Source of the DNA: a virus
Direction: 5' to 3' (one strand)
Length of the DNA stretch: 23,877 nucleotides
Virus record (IMG/VR): IMGVR_UViG_3300015372_000028
Span: 1-23,877 of that record
Shown: positions 1-22,270 of the stretch, piece after piece
Layout: each line of letters opens with the position of its first letter
Numbering within the stretch: position 1 is the first letter of the stretch
Made by a program: the position numbers and the translations under genes
The notes under the pieces: model-generated
Database searches by the model: none
What the model saw: the letters and a program-made list of their open reading frames with translations, nothing else
Told to the model about the DNA's origin: nothing

Positions 1-258
1 AGGAAGTCCACCCGGTTTGCCACCGAGGAGGAAGCCAAGGCCTTTATGAAGGACCGTGGGATCTTCCGCGGGATGGCGGTCCAAGTCGGATCCGGCAACC
101 CGCTTACTCCGCCCGCCGCCCGGACCATACGAACGTTCGCTACAAAGGAAGAGGCCGATGCCTTCCGGGCCCAGGCCGGCGGGATCAGCGTCCGTTACAA
201 CAACGGATCCTCCTGCGGGAACCCGTGGACCGTCGAAGTGGACTCTTTCCCAAAATGA
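1..258 (+). CDS. Small protein with internal duplication (5' partial)
   Basis: Frame 1 is open from the first base of the window, so the gene starts upstream; the ATG at 46 is internal. The visible part has two copies of a roughly 37-residue unit: one begins TRFATEEEAKAF, the other RTFATKEEADAF, and each ends near a GNP-x-T motif. This looks like a duplicated small alpha/beta domain. The stop at 256-258 lies in the loop of a CCCA/TGGG inverted repeat that opens the next promoter-like element. There is no signal peptide or membrane segment. I do not recognise the family. Judging by position it is one of the early accessory proteins. Confidence 0.7.
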   Translation, partial: RKSTRFATEEEAKAFMKDRGIFRGMAVQVGSGNPLTPPAARTIRTFATKEEADAFRAQAGGISVRYNNGSSCGNPWTVEVDSFPK

Positions 259-289
259 ATGGGCCTGCGACCCGCTTATATCATCTCGT
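249..289 (+). promoter_or_regulatory. Promoter-like repeat element, copy 1
   Basis: CCCA (249-252), a 7-base loop with the upstream TGA, TGGGCC (260-265), TGCGA, CCCGC (271-275), then TTATAT (276-281) and 8 bases to the ATG at 290. It is the first of nine copies. The TTATAT reads as a -10 box, which would put the transcript start within a few bases of the ATG. Confidence 0.7.
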
Positions 290-550
290 ATGAAGAACAT
301 GAACAAAAACGAAACAACGGGCCGGGACGCGACCCTCCTCGGGATCGCCCGCGAAACCCTCCATTTGGAAACCCTCGACACCCGCCGTTCCGACGGGCTC
401 GACTTTAGCGATCAAGCAGTTTGGCAGATCAAAGCCGCGCTCGAGGCCGCCTACGAAGCGGGCCGGGCCTCGGTGGTCCACGAAACGCACGGGCGCACCT
501 ACTCCGCCCAACTCGACGCCAAGCAAGTTCTCAAACGGAAACGGGCCTGA
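290..550 (+). CDS. Small hypothetical protein (86 aa)
   Basis: The start ATG at 290 was chosen because it lies 8 bases after the -10-like TTATAT of repeat copy 1 and begins an AT-rich codon run (MKNMNKNETT) like the neighbouring genes. A longer in-frame ORF reaches back to 56, but it would read through the preceding gene and the promoter-like element. The protein is charged, mostly helical in appearance, and ends in a basic tail (KQVLKRKRA). The stop TGA is embedded in the next repeat copy. No Shine-Dalgarno is present. The family is not recognised and no function can be assigned. Confidence 0.65.
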   Translation: MKNMNKNETTGRDATLLGIARETLHLETLDTRRSDGLDFSDQAVWQIKAALEAAYEAGRASVVHETHGRTYSAQLDAKQVLKRKRA

Positions 551-563
551 CACCCGCTTATAC
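543..563 (+). promoter_or_regulatory. Promoter-like repeat element, copy 2
   Basis: GGGCC (543-547), TGACA, CCCGC (553-557), TTATAC (558-563). The upstream gene's stop codon lies inside the element. Unlike the other copies there is no ATG right after it. The position where ATG would fall reads ACG, and the next gene starts at 599, giving about 30 bases of leader. Confidence 0.6.
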
Positions 564-598
564 ATACCCGACGGTAAACAATTAACACAAACGAGAAT

Positions 599-886
599 AT
601 GGGCGCAACGAACATCGGAGGATTCAAAGTAACCAAGGGCACCGACCTCACCAAGTGGTATCGGGCCGCCGTGGACGGGGCAACCCGCGAATACGGGCAG
701 GACCAATACAACGGGACCATCTCCACAACCCGCGGGATCAAAACGTCCTCCCAGGTTTTCAAGGACCGGGACGCCGCCGAGGATTACATTTGGGAAAACA
801 CCGAGAAGTGGGGCCCGGTCCTCGCCGTTACCGTTAAAACGGCCACCGAGGAGTATTGGCTTGTGGGCGGATGGGCCGCGGAGTGA
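599..886 (+). CDS. Small hypothetical protein (95 aa)
   Basis: This gene starts at ATG 599, 35 bases after the -10-like box of repeat copy 2, a longer leader than its neighbours have. The sequence before the ATG (ACGAGAAT) is at best a weak ribosome site. The product is soluble-looking with an aromatic C-terminal half (EEYWLVGGWAAE). It carries a segment QVFKDRDAAEDYI that resembles the F-x-x-x-EEA-x-x-F segments of the first protein in the window, so it may share that small fold. No catalytic motif is visible and I do not recognise the family. Confidence 0.65.
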   Translation: MGATNIGGFKVTKGTDLTKWYRAAVDGATREYGQDQYNGTISTTRGIKTSSQVFKDRDAAEDYIWENTEKWGPVLAVTVKTATEEYWLVGGWAAE

Positions 887-900
887 TTCTCAAACCTGGT

Positions 901-927
901 GGGCCTACGACCCGCTAATACATACCC
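901..927 (+). promoter_or_regulatory. Promoter-like repeat element, copy 3
   Basis: GGGCC (901-905), TACGA, CCCGC (911-915), TAATAC (916-921), then 6 bases to the ATG at 928. The variant -10 box TAATAC is shared with copy 9. Confidence 0.7.
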
Positions 928-1149
928 ATGAGTAAGAACACGAAAAACGTCGGGCCGGCCGGATACAGGTGGGACCGTATGAGCAAAGCCGAGCGCCTTG
1001 CCCTGATCCGGACGGATGCAACAATGAGACATCCCCATTGGACCGCCTTGGCGGACCGTTGGGCTTCCGCCGATTGGGGGCAGCTCACCGGGCTCCAACG
1101 GGACGCGACGATGGACCTCTTCAAGTCCCAAGGACTTTCCCACCTTTGA
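928..1149 (+). CDS. Small hypothetical protein (73 aa)
   Basis: The gene starts 6 bases after the TAATAC box of repeat copy 3 and has no Shine-Dalgarno, so a nearly leaderless message is likely. The product is a short soluble protein with two probable helices (around SKAERLALIRTDATM and LTGLQRDATMDLFKS). The stop TGA sits in the loop of the CCCA/TGGG inverted repeat of copy 4. No known motif is visible. It belongs to the early small-gene series only by position and promoter. Confidence 0.65.
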   Translation: MSKNTKNVGPAGYRWDRMSKAERLALIRTDATMRHPHWTALADRWASADWGQLTGLQRDATMDLFKSQGLSHL

Positions 1150-1178
1150 TGGGCCAGCAACCCGCTTAACCAACCCAT
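1139..1178 (+). promoter_or_regulatory. Promoter-like repeat element, copy 4
   Basis: CCCA (1139-1142), 7-base loop with the upstream TGA, TGGGCC (1150-1155), AGCAA, CCCGC (1161-1165), TTAACC (1166-1171), 7 bases, ATG at 1179. The -10-like box is the most diverged of the nine. The element and the first codons (ATGTCAAATATGAA) match copy 5. Confidence 0.65.
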
Positions 1179-3494
1179 ATGTCAAATATGAATATCAACC
1201 TCGAAACAATCCTCCCGTGGACGGCACCCGTCCGGGTCGCCACGAAGAACGGCGACCGAATGCTCCGCAAGGCCCCGGCCGAGCGGGGGCACTCCTTTTG
1301 GGACACCTGGAACGCAAACCGGGAAGCCCTCCGGTCCGCCGGGATCACCGTCAAATACGTCAAGCACGACGACGCCGGGTTGCCCGTGTATGAAATCCTT
1401 TGGTGGCTCCCGCTGGATCCCGCCGTGGTCGAAGCCGAGCGGCTCCGCCGGGAAGAGGAACGGCTCGAGCTCAAGGAAGCCCTCGAGGGTAAGCACGCCA
1501 AGCTCACGGCCGAGCAGTACGCCCGGTTCAAGCTCATCGAGAAGAAACTCCTCCCGTTCCAGATCCCTTCGGTCCGCCGGCTCGTCAAAGCCCTCTCGAC
1601 CTATAACGGGGCCCTCGACGCGTCCGACACGGGAACCGGGAAGACTTACGCGAGTCTCGCCGCCGCCTTCATCCTTAATCGCCCGGTGTACGTCGTTTGC
1701 CCGAAGGCCGTCCGGCCGAGCTGGAAACGGGCCGCCGCTCATTTCGGGATGAGCATTTTCGTTTGCAACTACGAGCTCCTCCGCCGGGGTGAGCAAGCCG
1801 CCGTCCGGATCGTCGGCGAGGGCAAGAACGAGGACTTCCAATGGCACTTGGATCCGACCACGATCATCATCTTCGACGAGTGCCACCGGCTGAAGGATCA
1901 CCGGACTTGGAATTGTGCCCTCGGCCTTTCCGCCATCCGCCAGAAGTACATGGTGATCGGGCTTTCGGCCACGGCTGCGGACAACCCGCTCCAGATGAAG
2001 TTCAGCGGGTTCCTGACGGGTTGCTTCCCGGAGAAGCGATTCTGGGCGTGGGCCCAATCGCACGCTTGCAAGAAGGGTCGTTGGGGCATGAGCTTTGAAG
2101 GCGGGGTGGAGGAACTCAACCACATCCACCGGGAGATCTTTCCGCTCCACGGGACCCGCGTTCGGATCGCCGACCTCGGCAACGCTTTCCCGGAGACTCA
2201 AATCACGGCGGAGTGTTACGACACGAACGGGAACGAGTCCAAGATCAATGCGGTGTACGACGAGATGAAGGACGAGATCGCCCGCCTCCAGGAACGGATG
2301 AACGCGGACACCGGGGCCTGCATCCTGGTCGCAATGCTCCGGGCCCGCCAGAAGGCCGAGATCCTCAAGGTCCCGGCGATCGCCGCGATGGCGCAAGATG
2401 CCGTCGAGGAAGGGATGTCCGTGGCGATCTTCGTGAACTTTGATGAGTCGGCCGACGCGCTCGTGGCCAAGCTCAAAACCGAGTGTGTGATCCGGGGCGG
2501 GCAATCCGATACGGTCCGCGAGAACAACATCCAAGGGTTCCAAGAGGACCGGGAGAAGATCATCATCTGCAACATCAAGGCCGGCGGCGTCGGAGTATCC
2601 CTCCACGGCTCACCCGGGAAACGGATGCGCCTCGCAATCATTTGTCCGACCTGGAGTGGCCAGGACCTCAAGCAAGCCCTCGGCCGGGTCCACCGGGCCG
2701 GCGGGGTCAAATCCCTCCAACGGATTTTCTTCGCCGCGAAGACCATCGAGGAGCGGATCTGCGATCAAGTCCGGGAGAAGATCGGCCGCATCGACTTGCT
2801 GAACGACGGGGACCTGAAGCTCAACGAGAACCGGCCGGAGGAAATCATCAAGGACATCCCGGAGCCGCAACCGCAACCCGCGGCCGGATCGCCCATCATC
2901 CCGGTCGTCCACCCGGAGGAAGAAGGCGGACCGAAGGAACCCGGTATGAAGCCGCGGAAGGATCCGGCCCTACCCGCTGAGGTCATTACCGACACCCACC
3001 AAGCCCTCAAGATCCTGGCCGGGATGTGCGACGGGGCCCGTCGGAAGGATGAAGCCGGGTTCAACGCTATGGACACCGCCTACGGAAAGTCCTTGGCCGC
3101 TCAAGCCACCCTCACGCCCCGCCAAGTGGCCGTGGCGCTGAAGATGCTCCGCAAGTATTACCGGCAGCTCCCGGTGGATCTCCGGACCCGCTTGGGCCTC
3201 ACCCCGTCCAAGTCGGGCAAGGAAGCCAAGGGCACACCCGGTCCGTTGAAGCGGACCCGCTCGACGCCGGCCGCCTTCGGGGGACACTCCGCCGTGGCAA
3301 TCATCCGGGCCTGTGGAGTAGCCGGGTGGGACTTCAAGCGGACCCGGGCCGTCCTCAACCGGATCGGGGCAACGGTGGCGGACAATACGATCCGGATCCA
3401 GCTCAATGCCGGCCGGAAAGGATTGGCTCCCGCCGCCCCGGTGGATGTGGCCGGGCTGGAGAAGGCCCCGGCCGGGAACCCGGTGGTCCAGTAA
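1179..3494 (+). CDS. SNF2-type (superfamily 2) DNA helicase/ATPase with C-terminal DNA-binding tail
   Basis: An ATP-driven DNA translocase or helicase, probably acting in phage replication or recombination. Superfamily 2 motifs appear in order: Walker A DTGTGKT at residues 150-156, DECH at 233-236, SAT at 263-265, then CNIKAGGVGVSLH (motif V) and GRVHRAGG at 502-509 with arginines 503 and 506 (motif VI). A Pro/Glu-rich linker near residue 570-600 leads to two extra segments. Residues about 605-660 (DTHQALKILAG...DGA...GKSLA...LTPRQ) resemble a short domain I recall in other phage helicases. Residues about 700-747 (FGGHSAVAIIRA...AGRKG) look like a winged helix. Start at 1179 follows repeat copy 4; ATG 1188 is an alternative. 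This is the only large gene in the early small-gene region. Confidence 0.9.
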   Translation: MSNMNINLETILPWTAPVRVATKNGDRMLRKAPAERGHSFWDTWNANREALRSAGITVKYVKHDDAGLPVYEILWWLPLDPAVVEAERLRREEERLELKEALEGKHAKLTAEQYARFKLIEKKLLPFQIPSVRRLVKALSTYNGALDASDTGTGKTYASLAAAFILNRPVYVVCPKAVRPSWKRAAAHFGMSIFVCNYELLRRGEQAAVRIVGEGKNEDFQWHLDPTTIIIFDECHRLKDHRTWNCALGLSAIRQKYMVIGLSATAADNPLQMKFSGFLTGCFPEKRFWAWAQSHACKKGRWGMSFEGGVEELNHIHREIFPLHGTRVRIADLGNAFPETQITAECYDTNGNESKINAVYDEMKDEIARLQERMNADTGACILVAMLRARQKAEILKVPAIAAMAQDAVEEGMSVAIFVNFDESADALVAKLKTECVIRGGQSDTVRENNIQGFQEDREKIIICNIKAGGVGVSLHGSPGKRMRLAIICPTWSGQDLKQALGRVHRAGGVKSLQRIFFAAKTIEERICDQVREKIGRIDLLNDGDLKLNENRPEEIIKDIPEPQPQPAAGSPIIPVVHPEEEGGPKEPGMKPRKDPALPAEVITDTHQALKILAGMCDGARRKDEAGFNAMDTAYGKSLAAQATLTPRQVAVALKMLRKYYRQLPVDLRTRLGLTPSKSGKEAKGTPGPLKRTRSTPAAFGGHSAVAIIRACGVAGWDFKRTRAVLNRIGATVADNTIRIQLNAGRKGLAPAAPVDVAGLEKAPAGNPVVQ

Positions 3495-3580
3495 GATGGT
3501 CCACCGGCGGCTTGGAAATGGCACTACGATGGCATGGCCAAGAATCCGGCCCGGCGGTCCACCGGGATGGTCCAGAAGAT

Positions 3581-3600
3581 AATTCTAAAAATATAGAATT
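3581..3600. repeat. AT-rich perfect palindrome
   Basis: AATTCTA, a 6-base AT spacer, then TAGAATT: a perfect 7-bp inverted repeat. It is strikingly AT-rich for this GC-rich window and lies just upstream of the sigma70-like promoter at 3607, the usual place for an operator. There is no T-run after it, so a terminator is less likely. Confidence 0.5.
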
Positions 3601-3606
3601 GGGACG

Positions 3607-3634
3607 TTGACGGGATCCAGGACCGGGTTATATT
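3607..3634 (+). promoter_or_regulatory. Sigma70-like promoter
   Basis: TTGACG (3607-3612), 16-base spacer, TATATT (3629-3634). This is the best -35/-10 pair I found in the window. Transcription would start near 3640, where an in-frame ATG pair (3640, 3643) occurs, and would run through repeat copy 5 into the small-gene block at 3700-5137. Confidence 0.55.
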
Positions 3635-3671
3635 ACGGCATGATGGTAAACGAACGATTCGCAAGAACGAT

Positions 3672-3699
3672 GGGCCAACGACCCGCTTATAGAACCCGT
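3672..3699 (+). promoter_or_regulatory. Promoter-like repeat element, copy 5
   Basis: GGGCC (3672-3676), AACGA, CCCGC (3682-3686), TTATAG (3687-3692), 7 bases, ATG at 3700. The similarity to copy 4 continues into the coding sequence (ATGTCAAATATGAA). Confidence 0.7.
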
Positions 3700-4164
3700 A
3701 TGTCAAATATGAAACAAAATGCAACGCTGTTAATGACGGGGCACTCCTTGACCCTCCTGGTCGGGAACGAGCCGGTGAACTTCCTCCTGGCGGATTACGG
3801 TGCGGGCCGGCCCGGTCCTAAGCGCCAGGTGGCCTTGCTCAAGGATTACATCCGCCGCCGCCGGGACACCCTCCAGTTTACCCCTAACAATATCAAGACG
3901 TTCCCGTGGCTCCGGGAAGTCCTCGGCCTCCCGATGGGCCCGGAGGACTTCGCCCGGGACGGGGCCCTCGCCGCCGCCCGCAAGATCGGGAACGAGATGG
4001 TCACCGGACTTCCCAGAAGTAATGGGCCTGCGACCCGCTTATATCACGAGTATGAAGAAAACGATCACAACAATGAGAAGGACATGGACGGTCCGTATGC
4101 ACGCAGATCCGGCCGGACGGGGGATGTGGATGTCGGTGGATGTGGAAGCCAGCGACCGGAGTGA
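3700..4164 (+). CDS. Small hypothetical protein with probable read-through 3' end
   Basis: Start ATG 3700 follows repeat copy 5 and begins MSNMKQNATL, like the helicase start. In-frame ATGs at 3640/3643 would add about 20 residues. About the first 106 residues look like a normal protein (a charged RRRRD segment, then FPWLREVLGLPMGPEDFARDG). The frame then passes straight through repeat copy 6 and the start of the next gene, ending only at 4164. The block CTTCCCAGAAGTAATGGGCC here carries a TAA out of frame, whereas the near-identical block at 4720 supplies the in-frame stop of another gene. I suspect a small indel or cassette shuffle has cost this gene its stop. The function is not recognised. 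Confidence 0.5.
   Translation: MSNMKQNATLLMTGHSLTLLVGNEPVNFLLADYGAGRPGPKRQVALLKDYIRRRRDTLQFTPNNIKTFPWLREVLGLPMGPEDFARDGALAAARKIGNEMVTGLPRSNGPATRLYHEYEENDHNNEKDMDGPYARRSGRTGDVDVGGCGSQRPE
4012..4051 (+). promoter_or_regulatory. Promoter-like repeat element, copy 6
   Basis: CCCA (4012-4015), 7-base loop, TGGGCC (4023-4028), TGCGA, CCCGC (4034-4038), TTATAT (4039-4044), 7 bases, ATG at 4052. From TGGGCC to the -10 box it is identical to copy 1. It lies inside the open frame of the preceding gene. Confidence 0.7.
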
Positions 4165-4243
4165 AGCCCTCGAGGCCGCCACAAAACTGGGTAAAGGAAC
4201 GGATTACCCGTATGCGGGACGGGCCTCCTGGAAAGGGTGCTGA
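4052..4243 (+). CDS. Small hypothetical protein (63 aa)
   Basis: Start ATG 4052 is 7 bases after the TTATAT of repeat copy 6 and has no Shine-Dalgarno. A longer in-frame ORF extends back to 3800 but would overlap the preceding gene for 250 bases. The product starts with a basic strand (MKKTITTMRRTWTVRM). It then has an acidic, helical segment (SVDVEASDRSEALEAA) and a short Gly/Tyr-rich end. The strand-then-helix pattern resembles the small-domain pattern of the first gene. No function is recognised. It overlaps the over-extended end of the preceding ORF in another frame. Confidence 0.6.
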   Translation: MKKTITTMRRTWTVRMHADPAGRGMWMSVDVEASDRSEALEAATKLGKGTDYPYAGRASWKGC

Positions 4244-4255
4244 TCAATTTTGAGT

Positions 4256-4283
4256 GGGCCTTTAACCCGCTTATATCACAAGT
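4256..4283 (+). promoter_or_regulatory. Promoter-like repeat element, copy 7
   Basis: GGGCC (4256-4260), TTTAA, CCCGC (4266-4270), TTATAT (4271-4276), 7 bases, ATG at 4284. It lacks the upstream CCCA half of the larger inverted repeat. Confidence 0.7.
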
Positions 4284-4490
4284 ATGAAGACAATGACACA
4301 AGCAAGTTTGGCCCGGGCGATCCGGGAAGGCCGGGTGGAGGTCGTTAGCGAAGCCACCCGATCGGGTTACACCGAGATCCGCCGGACGGCGACGGGCAAA
4401 CGGGAGATGGTCCAAGTCATCACCCCGGAGGACCGTCTCGACCGACTCACCGCGATCGCGGGTGCGATCGCCGCCCTGAGACGGGCCTAA
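4284..4490 (+). CDS. Small hypothetical protein (68 aa)
   Basis: Begins 7 bases after repeat copy 7; no Shine-Dalgarno. The product has an N-terminal helix (QASLARAIREGRVEVV), a short central strand region and an alanine-rich C-terminal helix ending ALRRA. The first 15 residues could pass for part of a helix-turn-helix, but the match is too short to claim DNA binding. The stop TAA is embedded in repeat copy 8. Family unknown. Confidence 0.65.
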   Translation: MKTMTQASLARAIREGRVEVVSEATRSGYTEIRRTATGKREMVQVITPEDRLDRLTAIAGAIAALRRA

Positions 4491-4510
4491 CATCCGCTTA
4501 TAGGAACCAT
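4483..4510 (+). promoter_or_regulatory. Promoter-like repeat element, copy 8
   Basis: GGGCC (4483-4487), TAACA, TCCGC (4493-4497, one change from CCCGC), TTATAG (4498-4503), 7 bases, ATG at 4511. The upstream gene stops inside the element. Confidence 0.65.
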
Positions 4511-4732
4511 ATGAACAAAACCGAAATCAAATACGAAGTGCTGACCTGGGAAACGTCCCCGGACATCCACACCCTTAACATGGCCCTCAAACGGTTCAAC
4601 CGTCCGTTGCTGGTCCCGGTTGTGGGTGTTTACCCCGTCGGCCACACGGTCGTGATCGTGGAAACCCGCGACCGGTCCAAGGCCCAAGAACTTTACAACA
4701 AACACGTCGGAGCCACCGCTTCCCAGAAGTGA
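4511..4732 (+). CDS. Small hypothetical protein (73 aa)
   Basis: Starts 7 bases after repeat copy 8, without a Shine-Dalgarno. The protein shows alternating strand and helix: a first strand (EIKYEVLTW), a helix (TLNMALKRFN), two strands (PLLVPVVGVYPV and TVVIVETRD) and a last helix (DRSKAQELYNKH). This is compatible with a compact alpha/beta domain. The stop lies in the shared block CTTCCCAGAAGTGATGGGCC. I do not recognise the family. Confidence 0.65.
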   Translation: MNKTEIKYEVLTWETSPDIHTLNMALKRFNRPLLVPVVGVYPVGHTVVIVETRDRSKAQELYNKHVGATASQK

Positions 4733-4762
4733 TGGGCCTATAACCCGCTAATACATACCCAT
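4722..4762 (+). promoter_or_regulatory. Promoter-like repeat element, copy 9
   Basis: CCCA (4722-4725), 7-base loop with the upstream TGA, TGGGCC (4733-4738), TATAA, CCCGC (4744-4748), TAATAC (4749-4754), 8 bases, ATG at 4763. It is the last copy. Downstream genes are coupled by stop-start overlaps instead. Confidence 0.7.
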
Positions 4763-5137
4763 ATGAGCAACATTGCATCAAAAAAACAAGCGGTGGAGTT
4801 GATCCGCCGCGCCGTAGCTGCGGGCTGGACCCGCGAAGTCACCGCCCAACGCCTTGGTGTTCCGGGCGCCCGTCCGTTCTCGGTCCTGGTTTGCCTGTCC
4901 AAGACGGTCGAGATGCACCGGGGTGCGGTTATCCGATACGCCCACGTCTTCGTGAGCTTCCGGAACACCGACCGGCGCTTCGGCCGGATGACCGTTTCGA
5001 TCAACACCCGGATGGACTACGACCGCAAGGGCAAAGGATCCCGCGGGTTGTGGTCCGCCAACTATGCGATCGCCGATTTGAAGAAGGAAGAAGCGTCCGA
5101 ATATGCCGTGAAACCCTCCACCCCTGCCGTCCAATGA
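4763..5137 (+). CDS. Hypothetical protein (124 aa), first gene of a coupled run
   Basis: Starts 8 bases after repeat copy 9. The N-terminal 35 residues are helical (KKQAVELIRRAVAAGWTREVTAQRLG) and could form a helix-turn-helix-like unit. The middle is strand-rich (FSVLVCLSKTVEMH and YAHVFVSFRN), and the C-terminus is charged. The stop overlaps the next start as ATGA, and from here on genes are translationally coupled. There is no recognised catalytic motif or family. It probably shares a transcript with the coupled genes that follow. Confidence 0.7.
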   Translation: MSNIASKKQAVELIRRAVAAGWTREVTAQRLGVPGARPFSVLVCLSKTVEMHRGAVIRYAHVFVSFRNTDRRFGRMTVSINTRMDYDRKGKGSRGLWSANYAIADLKKEEASEYAVKPSTPAVQ

Positions 5138-5541
5138 TCCCGCTCAAACAATTCGCCCTCATGGGCAATGCCACGTTCACCGTCCGGTCCTGCAAGACGG
5201 GAACCCGGTTCACCTTCCGGGTTCGCCAACCCAAGGACGACGCCCCGCATTTCGTCTCGGTCCTCAACGGGCCGGACAACGAATCGAACTACGCGTTCCT
5301 GGGAACCATCTTCAACGGGGAGAAGTTCGTCCACGGGCGCAAGTCCCGGATCACCCCGGAGGCCCCGTCCGCCGTCGCCTTCAATTGGGTGTGGGCCCAC
5401 ATCGGGAACGGGCTCGAGGGCAAGGTGGAGATCTTCCACGAAGGTAAGTGCTGCCGGTGCGGGCGCAAGCTCACGACGCCGGAGTCCGTCGAGGCGGGTA
5501 TCGGGCCGGAGTGCATCAAGCACTTGGGAGGTGGGCTGTGA
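5134..5541 (+). CDS. DUF6011-like zinc-finger protein
   Basis: Start ATG 5134 overlaps the previous stop (ATGA); the frame is open further upstream, but that part shadows the preceding gene. The product has 135 residues. The N-terminal hundred residues are strand-rich (FTVRSCKTGTRFTFRVRQP and NYAFLGTIFNGEKF). The C-terminus carries a zinc-knuckle-like motif, CCRCGRKLTTPESVEAGIGP followed by EC, which matches my memory of the DUF6011 pattern found in phage proteins. Function in that family is unknown; the four-cysteine arrangement suggests zinc binding. The stop overlaps the following GTG start. Confidence 0.75.
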   Translation: MIPLKQFALMGNATFTVRSCKTGTRFTFRVRQPKDDAPHFVSVLNGPDNESNYAFLGTIFNGEKFVHGRKSRITPEAPSAVAFNWVWAHIGNGLEGKVEIFHEGKCCRCGRKLTTPESVEAGIGPECIKHLGGGL

Positions 5542-5753
5542 TCGTCAAGGTTGAAAGAGTGGGCGGGCGTCGTCGCCTCGTCCAACTAATGATCGGCTCA
5601 CCCGCCATGCGATTCGAGCTAACCAAGGAGGAAGCCCGCAAGCTGGCCCACGGCCTTCGGAAGGCGACGGCCGCCATTGAGTATTCGGAGTTGACCTCCC
5701 GTATTGGAGCGGCATTCCGACGGCTCGAGAAGAAGCACGGAGGTGTCCAATGA
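5538..5753 (+). CDS. Small hypothetical protein (71 aa), GTG start
   Basis: I place the start at GTG 5538. It overlaps the previous stop (GTGA) and is preceded by a good ribosome site (GGGAGG, 5526-5531). The frame is open back to an ATG at 5448, but that extension duplicates the zinc-finger gene in another frame. The product has an N-terminal strand pair (VIVKVERVGGRRRLVQLMI) and a long helix (LTKEEARKLAHGLRKATAAI) reminiscent of small phage proteins with one beta hairpin and one helix. The function is not recognised. Confidence 0.65.
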   Translation: MIVKVERVGGRRRLVQLMIGSPAMRFELTKEEARKLAHGLRKATAAIEYSELTSRIGAAFRRLEKKHGGVQ

Positions 5754-6025
5754 TCGCCTCCACCAACCTATTCAATTACGACAAGGAAACCCGGACGTTC
5801 TCGCAGGAGATCTCTACCCTCGAAGGATCCACCGGAGGGCATTGGGCCACGGCTTACATGACGCTGAAGTCCCACCGGACCGGGGCTGAGGTCGAGTATG
5901 AGGTGGAGCGGGTGGAGCGGGACGGCGAGGGAGACGTGGAGTATTGGGTCCTCAAGCCTACCCGCCGGGGCGTGGTCCGATGCCCGGCGGCCAAGGGAAC
6001 TAAGGTGGTAATTTACAACGACTAA
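5750..6025 (+). CDS. Small hypothetical protein (91 aa)
   Basis: ATG 5750 overlaps the previous stop as ATGA, with a strong GGAGG just upstream (5740-5744). The protein is strand-rich with an acidic middle (EVEYEVERVERDGEGDVEYW) and a basic C-terminal third, and looks like a small beta-barrel-type domain. No cysteine cluster, signal peptide or membrane segment is seen. The family is unknown; it is coupled to both neighbours or nearly so, since the next gene starts 6 bases after its stop. Confidence 0.7.
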   Translation: MIASTNLFNYDKETRTFSQEISTLEGSTGGHWATAYMTLKSHRTGAEVEYEVERVERDGEGDVEYWVLKPTRRGVVRCPAAKGTKVVIYND

Positions 6026-8821: not shown

Positions 8822-9141
8822 AAGGAAACCTAGTTGGTAAGTTCGTATCCATCTGGACCCGGCCTACCCGCCGGCATAAGTGGAAGGTGGAGTACACCTT
8901 CGTCCTCGTCTGTCATCACAAGAGGAATGATAAAGGCAAATGGTATCGCAACCAACCTGTAATTGAGATTGGTTGGCAGACCTCGAGTAGCGGCGGGCCC
9001 ACGGGAACCAGCTGGTCGCTGGCCTACTTGAGCGACCTCCGGAAGGTGGGCCCGCCATTGTTCGATGTTAAAGCCCGACTCGACAAGCCCAAGAAAAAGC
9101 GGATTCCGTATCACGAATACACCGGAGGATTCAAACCATGA
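8818..9141 (+). CDS. Hypothetical basic protein (107 aa)
   Basis: I chose ATG 8818 (start-stop overlap, GGAGG at 8809-8813) over the in-frame position 8782, which lies inside the previous gene. The product is basic and strand-rich: FVSIWTRPTRRHKWKVEYTF, then KWYRNQPVIEIGWQ and a Gly/Ser/Thr loop. It ends in a Lys-rich stretch (DKPKKKRIPYHEY). It could bind nucleic acid by charge alone, but no motif supports this. Confidence 0.65.
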   Translation: MKGNLVGKFVSIWTRPTRRHKWKVEYTFVLVCHHKRNDKGKWYRNQPVIEIGWQTSSSGGPTGTSWSLAYLSDLRKVGPPLFDVKARLDKPKKKRIPYHEYTGGFKP

Positions 9142-9596
9142 TCACCGAAGAAATCGAAAGCCTTCCACGCAAAGCCAACTTCCACGTCCACCCGCGCTAC
9201 ACCTGCGGGTCGGGAGCCATGGTGGATATGATGACCTGTATGCACGTCGCCGCGCAGGAGAAGGAATCTTACCAACATATCTTGGAGGGAGCAGAAGGGG
9301 AGGAGCGACAAGCCCTCGCCCAAGAGGTCGGGCTCGAGGGTATCTGTTACGCCCGGTGGGAGAAGGGGCGGAGGGTTTTCCGCTACGACCTCCTCACCGG
9401 GAGAACCTTCCAGGAACCCAAGCGCCTCGAGTATGAGGAGCTGGAGCGGTGGAAAGTCCTCGAGAGTCACGTCAGGATCCTAGCCCGGTTCGGCTCCAGG
9501 GTCCCAGGCGAGGTCGGGATGAACGACAAGGACAAGCGGGAGCTCGAAGCCTTGCGGGAGCGGGCTAAGATCCACCGGCAGGAGATCAAACCATGA
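9138..9596 (+). CDS. Hypothetical protein with His/Cys-rich start (152 aa)
   Basis: ATG 9138 overlaps the previous stop. The first 35 residues contain FHVHPRYTCGSGAMVDMMTC, with histidines and cysteines that might bind a metal. The rest is highly charged and helical (ILEGAEGEERQALAQEVG, later KRLEYEELERWKVLE and KDKRELEALRERAK), partly coiled-coil-like. The family is not recognised. The stop overlaps the ATG at 9593 of the interrupted gene that follows. Confidence 0.7.
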   Translation: MITEEIESLPRKANFHVHPRYTCGSGAMVDMMTCMHVAAQEKESYQHILEGAEGEERQALAQEVGLEGICYARWEKGRRVFRYDLLTGRTFQEPKRLEYEELERWKVLESHVRILARFGSRVPGEVGMNDKDKRELEALRERAKIHRQEIKP

Positions 9597-9676
9597 AAGC
9601 CGATAGACTGAAAAAGCCGATCAAGATCTTCTGAGCAGTCGTCGTAGGCTACGGTCGTAGCATCCCAGAAGGATCC
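9593..9676 (+). pseudogene. 5' part of an interrupted gene: 13 codons, then in-frame TGA
   Basis: ATG 9593 overlaps the previous stop exactly as in the neighbouring coupled genes, and encodes MKADRLKKPIKIF before a TGA at 9632-9634. The same frame then continues without a stop through AVVVGYGRSIPEGS into the intact ORF at 9677-9895. The whole reads as one gene of about 100 codons broken by a single TGA. TGA ends many other genes here, so it is not reassigned genome-wide. A perfect stem GCTAC-GGTC-GTAGC begins 14 bases after the TGA. Either a nonsense mutation, a sequencing error or programmed read-through could explain it. Confidence 0.55.
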
Positions 9677-9895
9677 TTGCCCGTCTTCTCCGTGGATACG
9701 GAGGAGGAGGCAAGGATGTTGATCACGCTCACCTGCCCGACGGACATTGACGGAGTCCACTTCGCCCGGGAGCTGGCCGTCGAGCAGTCGTTGAAGAACC
9801 TCTACGCCTTCTCCGACCGCCTGGCGAAGGCGTGGGCCCTCTGGCAAAAGAAGTCCAAACGCCGGCCGGCCCCGCCCAAAAAGTCCCGCAGATAA
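9677..9895 (+). CDS. Small phage protein, 3' part of the TGA-interrupted gene
   Basis: The intact part begins at a possible TTG start (9677) with AGAAGG just upstream; ATG 9716 is another restart. The product (LPVFSVDTEEEARMLITLT, CPTDIDGVHFARELAVEQSL, YAFSDRLAKAW) looks like a conserved small phage protein of unknown function, followed by a basic tail rich in Lys, Arg and Pro. Because the upstream codons in the same frame also look coding, I regard 9593-9895 as the ancestral gene. The protein may now be made only by re-initiation or read-through. Confidence 0.6.
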   Translation: MPVFSVDTEEEARMLITLTCPTDIDGVHFARELAVEQSLKNLYAFSDRLAKAWALWQKKSKRRPAPPKKSRR

Positions 9896-9920
9896 TATAG
9901 GTGGCGGGACCGTTCACCGC

Positions 9921-9948
9921 CGGAGGATCCGTTGCGTCGGGTCCTCCG
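9921..9948 (+). other. Strong hairpin between modules
   Basis: CGGAGGATCC (9921-9930), 8-base loop, GGGTCCTCCG (9939-9948): a 10-bp stem with a single G-T wobble. An 8-bp palindrome CTACGTAG follows (9951-9958). There is no T-run, so a classical intrinsic terminator is doubtful. The hairpin holds the only GGAGG near the next gene, so it could hide or expose a ribosome site. It marks the border between the small-gene run and the replication genes. Confidence 0.5.
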
Positions 9949-9963
9949 ACCTACGTAGTCTTA

Positions 9964-10857
9964 ATGCCTATGGACATTCAAGAGAAGTACTCGCGGATCT
10001 TTGCTCGGCCGGTGGCTTTCCATCGGGTTTTCGTAGATTGGACCGGAAGTGTCCACGCCGCCCTAATGCTCTCCCAACTTGTGTATTGGAGCAGTCGGAC
10101 CAGCAACAAGGAAGGTTGGGTGTATAAGACGGCGGAGGATTGGGAAAGGGAGACAGGATTGTCCTACAAGAACCAACGTACTGCGAGGTTACAATTGAGG
10201 AGACTCCAGCTGATGAAGGAGCTCCTGTGCGGAGTACCGGCCAAGTTGTACTTCCGTGTTGTTTGGTCGGAATTTGATAGGCGATGCCGATTGGGAAAGC
10301 CTAGCCATGCCGAAGGGGAAAGGCTAGTTGGACCGGAGGTGTCTGACAAGCCATGCCGAATCGGCAGAACTAATACAGAGAGTACCCCAGAGAATACCCC
10401 GGAGGGGAAACTAAAGTTTCCCCCGCACGCCCCTGCCGGGGCGGCGAAGGACACCGGGTTGGGCATCCTTGTTAATGGAGAGATATCAACAATCCTCCAA
10501 GGCTTCTTCAAGCTGTGGAGACGGACCGGTAGTACCCGCTATTCCTCCCAAGACAACTTCCAGGTCCTCGCCCCCAAGTGGAGGAATAGGGTTGAACGCC
10601 TCCTCGAGTCCGGCGTCAGCTTGGAAGAGTTCCGCACCGTCGCCAACTGGTATCTTGAACATGTGGATGACGACTGGACTCCCAAGTGGAACGGTGTTAA
10701 TCACTTTTGTGACTCGTTCTTTGAGATCAGGAAGGCTATGCGTCGGGCCGGGGCCAAGAAGAACGGGCACAGCCGGGACGAGGACCCGGAGGAGATTATT
10801 GATCCAGAAACAGTCGGTAGCTCAATCGTCGAAGTGATAAGACATAGGAAAGGATAG
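9964..10857 (+). CDS. Winged-helix replication initiator / helicase loader-like protein
   Basis: The frame is open from GTG 9901, but that stretch contains the hairpin at 9921-9948, so I prefer ATG 9964 (or ATG 9970). The N-terminal 100 residues contain HAALMLSQLVYWSSRTSN, YKTAEDWERETGLSYKNQRT and LRRLQLMKELL, the winged-helix pattern typical of phage replication initiation proteins that bind the origin. A disordered linker rich in Pro, Glu and Thr follows, then a C-terminal helical domain (RYSSQDNFQVLAPKWRNRVE) that may contact the helicase. It sits directly upstream of a DnaB-like helicase, the usual arrangement for initiator and helicase. Family assignment is from pattern, not alignment. 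Confidence 0.75.
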   Translation: MPMDIQEKYSRIFARPVAFHRVFVDWTGSVHAALMLSQLVYWSSRTSNKEGWVYKTAEDWERETGLSYKNQRTARLQLRRLQLMKELLCGVPAKLYFRVVWSEFDRRCRLGKPSHAEGERLVGPEVSDKPCRIGRTNTESTPENTPEGKLKFPPHAPAGAAKDTGLGILVNGEISTILQGFFKLWRRTGSTRYSSQDNFQVLAPKWRNRVERLLESGVSLEEFRTVANWYLEHVDDDWTPKWNGVNHFCDSFFEIRKAMRRAGAKKNGHSRDEDPEEIIDPETVGSSIVEVIRHRKG

Positions 10858-10858
10858 T

Positions 10859-12256
10859 ATGCCAATAATAGTCAGGGACTACTCGGGTAAGGAAAGTCGG
10901 CCAGTGTTAATAGCTATGATGATTCATAGCGGGGTGTTGGGTCGGATCGCCTCCATTACCAAGGGCCACGAGAACTTGTTTGGAGGCAAGTGGGCGGATC
11001 TCATAGCGGGATGGTGCTTGGATTACTGGCGGAAGTATGGGAAGGCTCCGGGCAAGGCTCTTCTCCCCATCTTTCAGGATTGGGCCTTACAGTGTAAGGA
11101 CAACGGGGCGGTGGAGTTGGTGGAATCTATGTTGGAGGGATTGGGTAAGGAGGCCAGCCGGTCGGAGGATCTGAACGAGGACTTCATTGTGGATTTGGCC
11201 GCCCGTTATTTCGACGGGGCCCAGTTGAACCGGATCCAAGGGGAGATGGACGAAGCCCTCCGACAAAAGGACATCGACCAGGCGAGGGAGGTTCTCCTGT
11301 CCTACAAGAGGATCCAGTTGGGTAGTAGTGGCGAGATCCAAGTGGATGCGGAGTCCATAGCCCGGTCCTTGCTGAACCGGGAGAAGAACCAAGTGGTGAT
11401 ATGGCCTAAGGATTTGGGCAAGTTCCTCTCGCCCCACTTTTCGCGGGATCGGTTCATCTCGTTTGTGGGCCCGGAGAAGCGGGGCAAGAGCTACTGGCTC
11501 CAGGAAACCGTTTGGCAGGCCTTACGCCAACGCCGGCGGGTCCGTTACTATGTGGTCGGGGATATGAGCGAGGACGAGGTGATCCAACGATTGATGGTGA
11601 GATCCTCCCGACGTCCGTTGGATGCCAAGTCCATAAAGATTCCTAGGGACCTTCAAATCATCAAGGAGGGGGCGGACCGGAAGCCGAAGGTCGAGTCGGA
11701 GGTTTATGATAGTGGGGAGGTCACCTTGAAGGGACGGATCCTAGATTGGGAGAAGATCGCCGGGAAAAGAGGAGGGCTCCTGTCATTACAATGTCGATCC
11801 GCCCATTCTATCACGGCCGGGGAGATCGAGAATGAACTACGACACTTGGACCCGGAGGATGTACCGGACGTGGTGGTGATCGACTATGCCGACCTGTTGG
11901 CCCCGGAACCGCACACGGTGAAGATGGACTTCCGTCACCAAGTCAATATGACGTGGGCTTTGCTCCGGAGCATCTCGCAGAAGTATCACCTCCTGCTTGT
12001 GACTGCTACCCAGGCCGCCGCTACATCCTACGACCGGAAGTTGATCACGAAGAAGGATTTCTCCGAGGACAAGAGGAAGAATGCCCATGTGACGGGTATG
12101 ATCGGGATCAACCAGACGGCCGAGGAGAAGGTGCACGGCATCTACCGATTGAACTGGGTGTTCCTCCGGGACGGGAAGTGGGCGGACTTCCAAGTAGTCT
12201 GGACGGCGGGGAACCTGGCCGTCGGATGCCCTTGCTTCGTTTCCAAATTGCCGTAG
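10859..12256 (+). CDS. DnaB-like replicative DNA helicase
   Basis: A RecF-fold ATPase expected to form a ring that unwinds the fork. Walker A is GPEKRGKS (residues 204-211). Walker B is PDVVVIDYADLL with Asp342, and the sensor strand LLVTATQAA carries Gln385. The N-terminal 170 residues are helical, as expected for the DnaB N-terminal domain, including a start (RPVLIAMMIHSGVLGRI) like the DnaB N-domain. At 465 residues it is full length. The start at 10859 is one base after the initiator stop, with AGGAAAGG upstream. Its place after the initiator supports a role as the phage replicative helicase. Confidence 0.88.
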   Translation: MPIIVRDYSGKESRPVLIAMMIHSGVLGRIASITKGHENLFGGKWADLIAGWCLDYWRKYGKAPGKALLPIFQDWALQCKDNGAVELVESMLEGLGKEASRSEDLNEDFIVDLAARYFDGAQLNRIQGEMDEALRQKDIDQAREVLLSYKRIQLGSSGEIQVDAESIARSLLNREKNQVVIWPKDLGKFLSPHFSRDRFISFVGPEKRGKSYWLQETVWQALRQRRRVRYYVVGDMSEDEVIQRLMVRSSRRPLDAKSIKIPRDLQIIKEGADRKPKVESEVYDSGEVTLKGRILDWEKIAGKRGGLLSLQCRSAHSITAGEIENELRHLDPEDVPDVVVIDYADLLAPEPHTVKMDFRHQVNMTWALLRSISQKYHLLLVTATQAAATSYDRKLITKKDFSEDKRKNAHVTGMIGINQTAEEKVHGIYRLNWVFLRDGKWADFQVVWTAGNLAVGCPCFVSKLP

Positions 12257-12264
12257 ATAATAGG

Positions 12265-12528
12265 ATGAAGAAGAAGATGAACCAAGCAGTTAACAACCTA
12301 GGGCGGCGGCAGGGTATGAGCTGGAGGCTGTTGGAATTGCTCCAGCAGCGGGAAGGTTGGTGGCACGACCATGAGGTGTCCAAACTCACCGGCTTGCCCC
12401 TCTCCGTCGTCCGGCCGGCGCTCCACTACTTGCGGAGGGTCGGGGCCGTGAAGTACCGGAAGCAAATCCAGTATCGCCTCGACGGTCGGAAGTCCTTGGA
12501 TCGTCTGCTCAAGAGAAAGAAGAAATGA
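12265..12528 (+). CDS. Small winged-helix DNA-binding protein (87 aa)
   Basis: Start ATG 12265 lies 8 bases after the helicase stop; ATG 12277 is an alternative, and the longer upstream frame is a shadow of the helicase. The middle (WRLLELLQQREGWWHDHEVS, then LTGLPLSVVRPALHYLRRVGAVKYR) fits a MarR/ArsR-like winged helix: a helix, a turn with a recognition helix, and a strand pair. The tail is strongly basic (RLLKRKKK). It may be a transcription regulator or a replication accessory protein. The stop overlaps the QueD start as ATGA, so it is co-transcribed with the base-modification genes. Confidence 0.7.
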   Translation: MKKKMNQAVNNLGRRQGMSWRLLELLQQREGWWHDHEVSKLTGLPLSVVRPALHYLRRVGAVKYRKQIQYRLDGRKSLDRLLKRKKK

Positions 12529-13028
12529 ACACAGTAACCAAATCCTACCGGGACTTACCAGCAGCTCATAGACAACCCAATCACGATGGCCACTGCCGAC
12601 TCATTCATGGTCATAATTTCGCCTTCGATATAACCTTCGGGTGTAATTTCCTAGATGAGAATGGCTTCGTGGTGGACGTGGGCAAGTTGGAGGAAGTGAA
12701 GGCCTTCCTCGTGGAGAGCTTCGACCACACCCTTCTCCTCAACTCGGACGATCCGCGGTTGGAATATCTTGTCGCCGGGCTCACATCGGAGCTCAAGGTT
12801 ACGCCCGGCGGGGTAGGGGAGGAGGATACTGAGACGGTGCAGTCTCCGGTCGCAAAGATAGTGTTCGTCCCCAACTGCGGGATGGAGGGATTGGCGAAGT
12901 GGGTGTTTGAGGAAGTTCAAGGGATCGTGACCAAGCAGGTCCCCGGAGCAAAGGAGCGGGGCCTGCTTGTGGTGGAGGTCGTTTGTTGGGAGGACTCCAA
13001 GAACCGGGCAACCTATCGACACGAATGA
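12525..13028 (+). CDS. queD: 6-carboxy-tetrahydropterin synthase (QueD-like)
   Basis: QueD converts 7,8-dihydroneopterin triphosphate to 6-carboxy-tetrahydropterin, the second step of 7-deazaguanine synthesis. Zinc ligands are His15 (PAAHR) and the HGH at residues 28-30, and the catalytic Cys24 lies in GHCRLIHGH. FDHTLLLN with Asp67/His68 supplies the charge relay, and the end (EVVCWEDSKN) carries the late Glu. At 167 residues it is somewhat longer than typical, because of an acidic Gly/Glu insert (about residues 88-105). It overlaps the genes on both sides. With QueE, GTP cyclohydrolase and a DpdA-like enzyme next door, it most likely serves DNA modification rather than tRNA queuosine. Confidence 0.9.
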   Translation: MNTVTKSYRDLPAAHRQPNHDGHCRLIHGHNFAFDITFGCNFLDENGFVVDVGKLEEVKAFLVESFDHTLLLNSDDPRLEYLVAGLTSELKVTPGGVGEEDTETVQSPVAKIVFVPNCGMEGLAKWVFEEVQGIVTKQVPGAKERGLLVVEVVCWEDSKNRATYRHE

Positions 13029-13720
13029 GCTTCCCACTTCCCATCCACGAACGGTTCCACACCTTCCAAGGGGAGGGTGTGTATATGGGTTGCCCGGCCT
13101 TCTTCATCCGCACCTTCGGGTGTCCGGTCCAATGCCCTTGGTGTGATAGCGCCGGGACTTGGCATCCTTCCTGGGTCCCGCAACACGTCGAGCGGATACC
13201 CGTGGCGCAGCTCGTCCAGGAGCACCGGGACGGGCCGGAGGTGGACTTCGTCGTCATCACCGGGGGTGAGCCGGCCGTCCATGACCTGACCGAGCTGACT
13301 GAGGAGTTGGCGTGCCGGATCCACCTCGAGACGAGCGGGACGTTCCCGATCAGGGGGACTATTGATTGGATTACCCTGTCCCCGAAGAAGTGGAGGATGC
13401 CGCTGAGGGAGAACGTCCAGAGGGCCCACGAGTTCAAGGTGATCGTTGAACAGCCGTCGGACATCAAGTACTACTCCGATGCTATTGGAGAAGTGTTCAG
13501 TATGAAGGAGGGGAAGCTACACGCCCCGATTTGGCTCCACCCTGAGTGGGGACACCGGGAGGATCCCGTGACGCTTGGAGCGATCAGTGACGCGGTCAAG
13601 GAAGGCCGGGGACGGTTCCGGGCCGGGTGGCAGATTCACAAACCTTACCGGGTGGATAGTCGGGACGCCCGCACGCAAGTCTTAGTTCCCCTCGGCGGGG
13701 ACCTGAGGAAGGGATACTAA
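13025..13720 (+). CDS. queE: 7-carboxy-7-deazaguanine synthase (QueE-like radical SAM enzyme)
   Basis: QueE turns 6-carboxy-tetrahydropterin into 7-carboxy-7-deazaguanine (CDG). The FeS-binding CxxxCxxC is at Cys33, Cys37 and Cys40 (CPVQCPWCDS). The start ERFHTFQGEGVYMGCPAFFI is the classical QueE N-terminus. The SAM-binding ITGGEP has its glycines at residues 80-81, and later segments (IHLETSGT, then DWITLSPKK) fit the core. It has 231 residues, a normal length. ATG 13025 overlaps the QueD stop (ATGA); the longer upstream frame is a shadow. No QueC follows, so the pathway in this window stops at CDG. Confidence 0.92.
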   Translation: MSFPLPIHERFHTFQGEGVYMGCPAFFIRTFGCPVQCPWCDSAGTWHPSWVPQHVERIPVAQLVQEHRDGPEVDFVVITGGEPAVHDLTELTEELACRIHLETSGTFPIRGTIDWITLSPKKWRMPLRENVQRAHEFKVIVEQPSDIKYYSDAIGEVFSMKEGKLHAPIWLHPEWGHREDPVTLGAISDAVKEGRGRFRAGWQIHKPYRVDSRDARTQVLVPLGGDLRKGY

Positions 13721-13732
13721 ACGCCGGAAAAG

Positions 13733-13763
13733 CGAAGACAAACGCGGTTTTGAACGAAGACAA
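13733..13763 (+). repeat. 9-bp direct repeat before the GTP cyclohydrolase fusion gene
   Basis: CGAAGACAA occurs at 13733-13741 and again at 13755-13763, two helical turns apart (22 bases start to start), in the only gap of the base-modification cluster. The second copy ends 2 bases before the ATG at 13766. Two copies on one face of the DNA just before a start suggest an operator or an RNA-binding site. Confidence 0.35.
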
Positions 13764-13765
13764 TT

Positions 13766-14689
13766 ATGGATAAAAGGATTCTAAGCCAAGCGGATTGCAT
13801 GAAGGCCGTCCACCGGCTGATTAAGGACGAGGAGATCTTCAACGGGTTTCGTGTGTATGGTGTCCCGCGTGGAGGCACCGAGGTGGCCAGACTTTGCGGC
13901 AAGGCGAGCAATAAGTTAATGGAGGTGGAGCACGCATCGGAGGCGGACTTCATTGTTGATGATATTGTGGACAGTGGGGCGACACGGGATCGCTACCGGC
14001 AGCGGTTCCCGAAGGCTCCCTTTCTAGCCCTCACCGACTATCTGGATCCTCCCCACGTCCACGGTCAATGGATTGTTTTCCCGTGGGAGGTGACGGAGGA
14101 CGGGGAGGATCGCTCGGCCGACGATATCGTGGTCCGGCTTCTCCAGTACATCGGGGAGGATCCCAAGCGGGAGGGTTTGGTTGGCACTCCGCAGCGGGTG
14201 TTGAAGGCGTGGAAGGAGTTGACGGTCGGGTATGGACAGGACCCGGCGGCGATCCTGTCCCGGGACTTCGCGGCTGACAAGTATGACGAGATCATAGCTT
14301 GCCCGTTCATCGAGTTCTTTAGTTGCTGCGAGCATCACCTCCTCCCCTTCTTCGGTGTCGCCCACGTCGCCTACCTTCCCTCGGCCGAGAAGCCGCGGAT
14401 CGTCGGGTTGTCGAAGATGGCCCGGCTCGTCGATTGCTTCGCCCGCCGCCTCCAGATCCAAGAGCAGATGACCATTCAGATTGCCGACGCAATGGAGGAA
14501 CACCTGGACCCGAAGGGAGTGGCGGTGATCATCCAAGCCAAGCACTTGTGTATGGCCTGCCGGGGAGTATCCAAGCGGGAGAGTGTGATGGTGACGAGTG
14601 CGATGCGGGGAGTCTTCCGTGACAACGATCCGGCCCGGTCGGAGCTCTTCAAGTTGATCGAATTGGCATCCCATAGTAACGGGAGATAA
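13766..14689 (+). CDS. folE: Phosphoribosyltransferase-like domain fused to GTP cyclohydrolase I
   Basis: The C-terminal 200 residues are GTP cyclohydrolase I, which makes 7,8-dihydroneopterin triphosphate from GTP, the first step of 7-deazaguanine synthesis. Zinc ligands are Cys188 and His191 in CCEHH and Cys262 in [29 protein letters not shown] is the conserved core. The first 105 residues are not part of the normal enzyme: VYGVPRGG (30-37) and [12 protein letters not shown] (62-73) form a type I phosphoribosyltransferase PRPP loop. The domain is shorter than usual for that fold. My inference is that it might salvage guanine released from DNA by the DpdA-like enzyme into GMP, and so supply GTP. 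Start 13766 has only a weak ribosome site. Confidence 0.88.
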
Positions 14690-14695
14690 TACGGC

Positions 14696-14995
14696 ATGAA
14701 TGCCTACCAAGAACCGAAGTATGAAGTCAAAGGCGGGAAGCTGGTCAACCGGCAGTCCGGTGAAGCTATCCCGGACGACGAGCCTGTGTTTATCCTCCGG
14801 GCTAGGGACAAGTATGCCGCCCACACCATCATCAGTTACTGTCAGGCCGTCCAAGACTCCCAACACCGGGAGGCCTCCCGGCTGAGGGCTGCTCAGTTCT
14901 CCAACTGGGCGGCACTCCACCCGGAGAGGATGAAGGAACCCGATAGTCAAATGGACACCGGTTGGACTTCCGCCGGGAACCCTCCGACGACATGA
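14696..14995 (+). CDS. Hypothetical protein (99 aa) of the modification cluster
   Basis: Starts 6 bases after the cyclohydrolase stop, with GGGAG upstream. The conserved-looking core is GEAIPDDEPVFILRARDKYA followed by a helical segment (IISYCQAVQDSQHREAS) and HPERMKEPD. I recall similar short proteins in other phage nucleotide-metabolism clusters, with no known function. It overlaps the DpdA-like start as ATGA, so its level is probably tied to the transglycosylase. Confidence 0.7.
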   Translation: MNAYQEPKYEVKGGKLVNRQSGEAIPDDEPVFILRARDKYAAHTIISYCQAVQDSQHREASRLRAAQFSNWAALHPERMKEPDSQMDTGWTSAGNPPTT

Positions 14996-15996: not shown

Positions 15997-16181
15997 GAAT
16001 CTACTTCAGCGGCGGCACCGGGATTGAGGGCGTGGACGAGAAGTGCTTCGACAAGTGGAAGCCCAAGCCCTATGTAATGTTGAGCTTCTTCGAGCTCAAG
16101 ACGTCGAAGTCCAAAGCAACGGTCCGTATGATTAAGGCTCACCTAAAGAGAAAGAAAAACGATGCGCATAAACCGCGATGA
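15993..16181 (+). CDS. 62-aa ORF resembling the missing N-terminus of the DpdA-like enzyme
   Basis: ATG 15993 overlaps the DpdA-like stop (ATGA). The product opens MRIYFSGGTG and continues YVMLSFFELK, then a basic tail (RMIKAHLKRKK). Phage DpdA-like proteins that I recall begin with a strand of the type M-x-I-Y-F-S/A-G followed by an L-x-S-F/Y-F/Y segment, before DSGA. This ORF has that pattern but lies downstream as a separate gene. It may complement the shortened transglycosylase in trans, completing the barrel, or be a relic. It overlaps the sliding clamp start by 20 bases. Confidence 0.6.
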   Translation: MRIYFSGGTGIEGVDEKCFDKWKPKPYVMLSFFELKTSKSKATVRMIKAHLKRKKNDAHKPR

Positions 16182-18810: not shown

Positions 18811-18811
18811 A

Positions 18812-21221: not shown

Positions 21222-21227
21222 AGCTAT

Positions 21228-22138: not shown

Positions 22139-22257
22139 TCATTCTTTACATTTTGCTTGGAGTGTTGCTGCTACCAATAGTCGCCTACTTGGTGATGAAG
22201 TTTGGAACGGCGGGCTACCTTCGGGCGAAGGAACAGTACAACAACCGAAAACCATAA
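22135..22257 (+). CDS. 40-residue single-span membrane protein, GTG start
   Basis: GTG 22135 overlaps the previous stop (GTGA) and has a strong GGAAGAGGAGG ribosome site. The 41 codons, stop included, encode a product with an N-terminal membrane helix (IILYILLGVLLLPIVAYLVM) and a short basic tail (KFGTAGYLRAKEQYNNRKP), so the tail is probably cytoplasmic. It is too short for most gene finders. The overlap, ribosome site and coherent membrane helix support it as real. It sits between the mediator-like and SSB genes; its function is unknown and could be to attach replication proteins to the membrane. Confidence 0.65.
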   Translation: MIILYILLGVLLLPIVAYLVMKFGTAGYLRAKEQYNNRKP

Positions 22258-22270
22258 ACAAAAGGACATT

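Follow-up and report, generated by a model that had tools for sequence, protein, structure and literature searches.

A repeated start-proximal element, probably a phage-specific promoter, in an uncultured virus and its sigma-encoding relatives

Late promoters of phage T4, with the motif TATAAATA, are served by the sigma-like protein gp55 and have no -35 box. Phages phiEco32 and 7-11 each encode a sigma factor that serves a dedicated set of promoters; in 7-11, promoters of the host and phage kinds both precede the sigma gene (PMC4331800). The late promoters of AR9 (AACA-6N-TA/G) belong to a phage that has multisubunit polymerases of its own, and the corresponding mRNA leaders are at least 26 nt long (PMC5312081). 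Start-associated sequences of cluster K mycobacteriophages, GGGATAGGAGCCC, contain a Shine-Dalgarno core and lie 3–7 bp from the start codon (PMC3203893). Here we describe a repeated element in a 23,877-nt stretch of DNA from a soil phage (IMG/VR record IMGVR_UViG_3300015372_000028, positions 1 to 23,877; hereafter the window), where it stands immediately before a series of mostly small genes. On the sequence evidence it is likely to have promoter function and, as related phages both carry the element and encode their own sigma factor, it is probably a phage-specific promoter. A fuller reading, in which host RNA polymerase, directed by the phage sigma, would recognise the element and produce near-leaderless mRNAs, is favoured here at about even confidence.

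The element, GGGCC-N4-A-CCCGC-TWATA, occurs nine times in the window, always on the + strand, whilst dinucleotide shuffles predict 0.25 copies and none of 100 shuffles reaches nine. The first-pass annotation had listed the same nine copies, and was equally accurate regarding the A that closes the five-base spacer (9/9 copies), the single TCCGC variant (4483) and the single copy with TTAAC as its last box (1151). It had placed eight copies 6–8 bases before an ATG; eight do lie this close, although the gap from last box to ATG is really 7–9 nt. Such proximity in eight of nine copies has a chance probability of p ~6e-10, with the copy at 543 being the exception. The 5′ end of the element falls 27–29 nt upstream of the ATG, and a purine is found 2 nt before the ATG in seven of the eight close-spaced copies.

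Copy 1 (GGGCCTGCGACCCGCTTATA, 261–280; ATG at 290) precedes a gene for an 86-aa DUF6900 protein (290–550), whilst copy 2 (GGGCCTGACACCCGCTTATA, 543–562) is separated by 36 nt from the following ATG, at 599, which opens a 95-aa gene (599–886). Copy 3 (GGGCCTACGACCCGCTAATA, 901–920; ATG at 928) is followed by a 73-aa gene (928–1149), and copy 4 (GGGCCAGCAACCCGCTTAAC, 1151–1170), which has the deviating last box, by a 771-aa helicase with ResIII/DEAD and Helicase_C domains (1179–3494; ATG at 1179). Copy 5 (GGGCCAACGACCCGCTTATA, 3672–3691; ATG at 3700) precedes a frame of 154 aa (3700–4164). Copy 6 repeats the sequence of copy 1 (GGGCCTGCGACCCGCTTATA, 4024–4043; ATG at 4052) before a 63-aa gene (4052–4243), copy 7 (GGGCCTTTAACCCGCTTATA, 4256–4275; ATG at 4284) lies before a 68-aa gene (4284–4490), the stop codon of which is within copy 8, and copy 8 itself (GGGCCTAACATCCGCTTATA, 4483–4502; ATG at 4511), the TCCGC variant, stands before a 73-aa gene (4511–4732). 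Finally, copy 9 (GGGCCTATAACCCGCTAATA, 4734–4753; ATG at 4763) precedes a 124-aa gene (4763–5137). All of these genes are on the + strand, and the small genes behind copies 2, 3 and 6–9 belong to no family. The copies occupy the intergenic gaps between these tightly packed small genes, and the stop codons of several preceding open reading frames (ORFs) abut or overlap them. An exception to this placement is the frame 3700–4164, which traverses copy 6 and runs into the next gene; its 3′ end is doubtful because of this overlap. A neighbouring frame would terminate in an SQK-stop tail, as seen before other copies, and a frameshift or sequence error is therefore possible.

Some copies, together with flanking codons, share 45–76 bp at 81–93 % identity, as would be seen after recent duplication. 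This is in keeping with a DNA site of another role, either a repressor or silencer site or a recombination boundary for the shuffling of gene cassettes, an explanation that we nevertheless consider highly improbable, as the fixed spacing to the ATG and the -10-like half of the element point to a promoter, with any shuffling perhaps a by-product.

The small genes had been described as lacking a Shine-Dalgarno sequence, and this is borne out by pairing to the anti-Shine-Dalgarno sequence (cut-off, -5 kcal/mol or better), which is found for none of 11 element genes, whereas 8 of the remaining 18 show it (p 0.0003). If the element is indeed a promoter, it is quite likely that the starts are near-leaderless; both the leaderless translation and the transcript start, the latter placed from element–ATG spacing, are what we infer. 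The alternative that the element acts in translation or as RNA, in the manner of the cluster K start-associated sequences, has several resemblances to commend it. Both are short asymmetric repeats just before an ATG, in one orientation, and associated with small non-structural genes (PMC3203893, PMC11373665), and the GGG-N7-CCC outline present in most window copies is common to the cluster K sequences (PMC3203893, PMC11373665). The first-pass annotation had drawn this comparison as one of similar position and other sequence; the sequence does differ and, unlike GGGATAGGAGCCC, the present element has no Shine-Dalgarno core or anti-Shine-Dalgarno pairing, and carries a -10-like box. Furthermore, no conserved RNA hairpin is found in the element (mean folding energy is not below that of shuffled sequences, and there is no covariation), its start is too distant from the ATG for a ribosome site, and most relatives lose GGG-N7-CCC yet keep GG-N10-GCTNAT. 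A role in translation or as RNA is thus very unlikely.

Two further contigs extend the locus. Contig IMGVR_UViG_3300000440_000090 (comprising L001, L017 and L018) is identical to window positions 1–862 (862 bases) and carries four more copies upstream, bringing the joined locus to 13, whilst a third contig is identical to positions 9041–23877 (14,837 bases) and adds no copies. Given these identical overlaps, all three derive from the same phage or from near-identical strains. Moving upstream past the array, IMGVR_UViG_3300000440_000090 encodes a primase, an SNF2 helicase and a 203-aa sigma70-family protein. A wider motif scan had been proposed at the outset; in the two overlapping contigs the copies cluster beside this sigma operon and, as the third contig is devoid of them, the elements are, within the ~54 kb seen, confined to ~7 kb adjoining it.

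The sigma protein of IMGVR_UViG_3300000440_000090 matches Pfam Sigma70_r2 above the cut-off (E 4e-8). Its AlphaFold model (predicted local distance difference test score, pLDDT, 84) yields a region 2 fold match at Z ~10, and the C-terminal domain aligns with sigma4. A profile alignment to RpoD suggests changes at the positions that we take to read the -10 box; this is consistent with another specificity, although it is no proof of it. The sigma gene adjoins SNF2 in ~40 related contigs, with one such gene per phage where found. No relative of this protein was found in reference genome contigs, and amongst phage records there was neither similar DNA by megablast nor a sigma relative by tblastn. 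A profile of all 26 sigma sequences was too diverse for scanning the collection.

Phage contigs fetched by similarity to the sigma and SNF2 proteins (hereafter relatives) reveal a wider element family, GG-N10-GC-T-N-A-T-[AC], located 6–10 nt before an ATG in about a dozen sigma–SNF2 phages. L061 has an array, downstream of sigma–SNF2–primase, L130 has several copies, and others have a single copy or few; the closest relative with sequence past SNF2 (L046) has no array there. The sigma-encoding group (0.43 Mb) has 34 perfect, gene-linked elements and the sigma-minus contigs (0.41 Mb) have one, a contrast in which clade and host are confounded, in which the larger count includes the window phage and a few fragments without a sigma gene, and to which several sigma-encoding phages contribute no motif. 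Only a gap of 10 between GG and GC is enriched, with counts at gap 11 coming from GGG, and variants with a single mismatch are near background. A leadered version was also observed, in which the element runs into a conserved GGGGTCGGAGGGGGCCCGTGAC-like leader that bears a strong Shine-Dalgarno sequence (L061 5971, L063 4186, L064 8925, L074 3619 and L126 3374). Elements of the form TCGGCATGARTCTTGCTCATA occur in L040 (4514, 8131, 15273) and L030 (4199, 10418 (minus)); several of these are followed by a TTGCAN4TGCAA palindrome, a possible operator, and by longer leaders.

In the favoured reading, the core GG-N10-GCTNAT[AC] would place GCTNAT at -12 to -7 and GG at approximately -24, with transcription starting 0–4 nt upstream of the ATG at each copy, such that each small gene would be a self-contained cassette of promoter and near-leaderless ORF. 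The reader would be host core RNA polymerase carrying the two-domain phage sigma encoded just upstream of the array. The first-pass annotation had ventured a phage-specific sigma signal; a sigma70-family gene does lie beside the array and the element is found within the sigma-encoding group, which lends support to that suggestion and to its promoter and near-leaderless readings, whilst the reader itself is something that we infer. Element copies precede the sigma gene or its operon in four relatives (L061, L062, L064 and L130), in which the phage sigma may reinforce its own expression.

A sigma70-type promoter, P1 (TTGACG-N16-TATATT; 3607–3634, + strand), is found 5 nt before an ATG at 3640 and 37 bp upstream of copy 5, with which it is in tandem. 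P1 has 10/12 consensus bases, which alone is near chance level in the scan. The window thus has one tandem of host-type promoter and element, L130 has two, and the contig that overlaps the window (L001) shows a matching layout. Such host-type promoters would start immediate-early expression, after which the phage sigma would activate the element promoters; the tandems fit an early-to-middle switch like that of phiEco32 and 7-11, with both this timing and the pairing of sigma and promoter being proposed from sequence. Like those phages, the present group has a sigma70-family factor, short and well-conserved putative promoters of its own, and both promoter kinds before the sigma gene (PMC4331800). 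Unlike 7-11, where the core is TGATGT followed by TATA at low copy number (PMC4331800), the motif here is GG-N10-GCTNAT, is dense, and nearly touches the ATG. Just upstream of P1 is an AT-rich palindrome (AATTCTAAAAATATAGAATT; 3581–3600, + strand), possibly an operator or UP-like element. The palindrome AATTCTAAAATTTTAGAATT, or sequence near it, recurs in L001 near 3140 (minus), L020 (2385–2405) and L046 (1905–1930), and near-identical copies in relatives precede the sigma and sbcC genes, lie between both, and also stand upstream of host-type promoters.

Several points weigh against the phage sigma as reader. A GG at -24 is not at the normal binding place of sigma4, which is -35. No recognisable element is present in the sigma-encoding G006, L065, L067, L069 and L080, and the G006 sigma is nearer to that of the window phage than is that of L061, which has an array. 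The association with sigma may also be one of clade, as sigma-minus contigs may have different hosts. Lastly, the sigma gene is accompanied more evenly by another start-proximal motif, AGATAATA, than by the GG element. This 8 bp motif is found in the window at 14684–14691 (+ strand), 4 nt before an ATG at 14696, with other copies at 9890 and 12255, and numbers 76 copies, at many places, in the sigma-encoding group versus 3 in sigma-minus contigs. It has no conserved -35, a start codon follows 2–8 nt downstream in 67 % of cases versus 18 % at random, and it may represent a further class of phage promoter. The sigma could recognise both motifs; alternatively, its target would be AGATAATA, with the GG element left to some other factor. 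The latter option, in which a second phage protein acting with host RNA polymerase, or an alternative host sigma, would recognise GG-N10-GCTNAT, gains from AGATAATA being the more regular sigma companion and from the sigma-encoding phages without a GG element. We nonetheless judge it unlikely, since elements lie upstream of sigma in the four relatives named above, and since G-12, T-10, A-8 and T-7 are common to the two motifs when these are set in a single register, so that one sigma could read both. The two motifs likewise resemble T4 late promoters in the combination of a phage sigma-like factor with no -35, AGATAATA being the better match of the two; unlike T4 late promoters, the GG element includes an additional GG box further upstream, at constant spacing.

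Host sigma54 (RpoN) would be expected to read GG at -25/-24 and GC at -13/-12, giving a start at or just before the ATG. The first-pass annotation had pointed to this spacing, and GG-N10-GC is indeed exact and conserved across relatives, with L050 (GGCACG-N4-CTTGCT region) and L054 (TGGCAT-N5-CTTGCT region) matching the consensus closely. Membership of the class is a different matter. Known sigma54 promoters have a near-invariant T at -14, whilst the base before GC is T in none of the nine window copies (all have C) and in 19 of 28 elsewhere, and CC and TT versions occur together in one phage (L125). T-N-A-T after GC is fixed, although sigma54 does not need it, and the intervals that hold the elements are some tens of bases long, with no activator or conserved enhancer site seen in the arrays. 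The phage contigs, which are incomplete, yielded no gene for sigma54 or for an enhancer-binding activator, and a host activator could serve. As the -14 T is absent or variable and neither gene was found, class membership is not supported, and sigma54 is a doubtful candidate. Sigma54_activat matches were also considered and set aside: they cover the partial P-loop only (model positions ~5–62 of 168), and those checked in G003, G004, G006 and G007 lie in the clamp-loader gene.

Host housekeeping promoters without a -35 are a further alternative, in which TWATA(T) or CGC-TWATAT would be an extended -10. The position relative to the ATG suits a -10 box, and L046 offers TTGAAG-N16-TAATAT with its -10 within CCCGCTAATAT. 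However, sigma70 needs A-11 and T-7 most, and these are not conserved in that register, whilst GG-N10 and GCTNAT are fixed; moreover, P1 is a distinct host-type promoter that does have a -35, and a sigma70 consensus scan of window positions 1–6000 (-35 located 16–18 nt upstream of -10) listed no element copy. This explanation is accordingly given little credence. With regard to polymerases of other kinds, the element resembles AR9 late promoters in being a bipartite, phage-specific motif of fixed spacing that ends at the start site, here a predicted one (PMC5312081). A T7-type RNA polymerase (PF00940) was not matched in 14 records, where contigs are fragmentary and control genomes were likewise negative.

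A broader proposition, that a sigma70-family phage sigma reads sigma54-like geometry (GG at -24 and GC at -12, 10 nt apart) with no -35, clade-wide in soil phages and in arrays of near-leaderless single-gene cassettes, is advanced only tentatively. If true, it would give an uncultured phage clade its own promoter language, with sigma54-like spacing and a short phage sigma as the apparent reader, and would provide a clean system for studying how a sigma that lacks the customary contact at -35 acquires another at -24. Near-leaderless wiring would make the small genes, possibly involved in host takeover, portable cassettes, and the motif could be used to find early-gene arrays in metagenomes.

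As for the host, the best SNF2 match (29 %) is to a contig from an Opitutia metagenome-assembled genome, and the sequences weakly indicate a host in Verrucomicrobiota. A phage-encoded type IV pilin-like protein (L017 9667–10044 (minus); L046 4371–4778 (minus)) is a possible host clue, and one that we take to be verrucomicrobial in appearance. Elsewhere in the window, positions 12525–15996 encode a QueD-like (PTPS) protein, a radical SAM protein, a GTP cyclohydrolase I carrying an additional N-terminal segment, and a protein resembling queuine tRNA-ribosyltransferase, a gene set that suggests 7-deazaguanine DNA modification. At 17214–18398, a uracil-DNA glycosylase domain is fused to a weak 3′–5′ exonuclease match and adjoins a family A DNA polymerase. 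Amongst the tail genes of L018 (4736–6226, minus) is a protein that, by eye, has the look of a receiver–histidine kinase–receiver arrangement.

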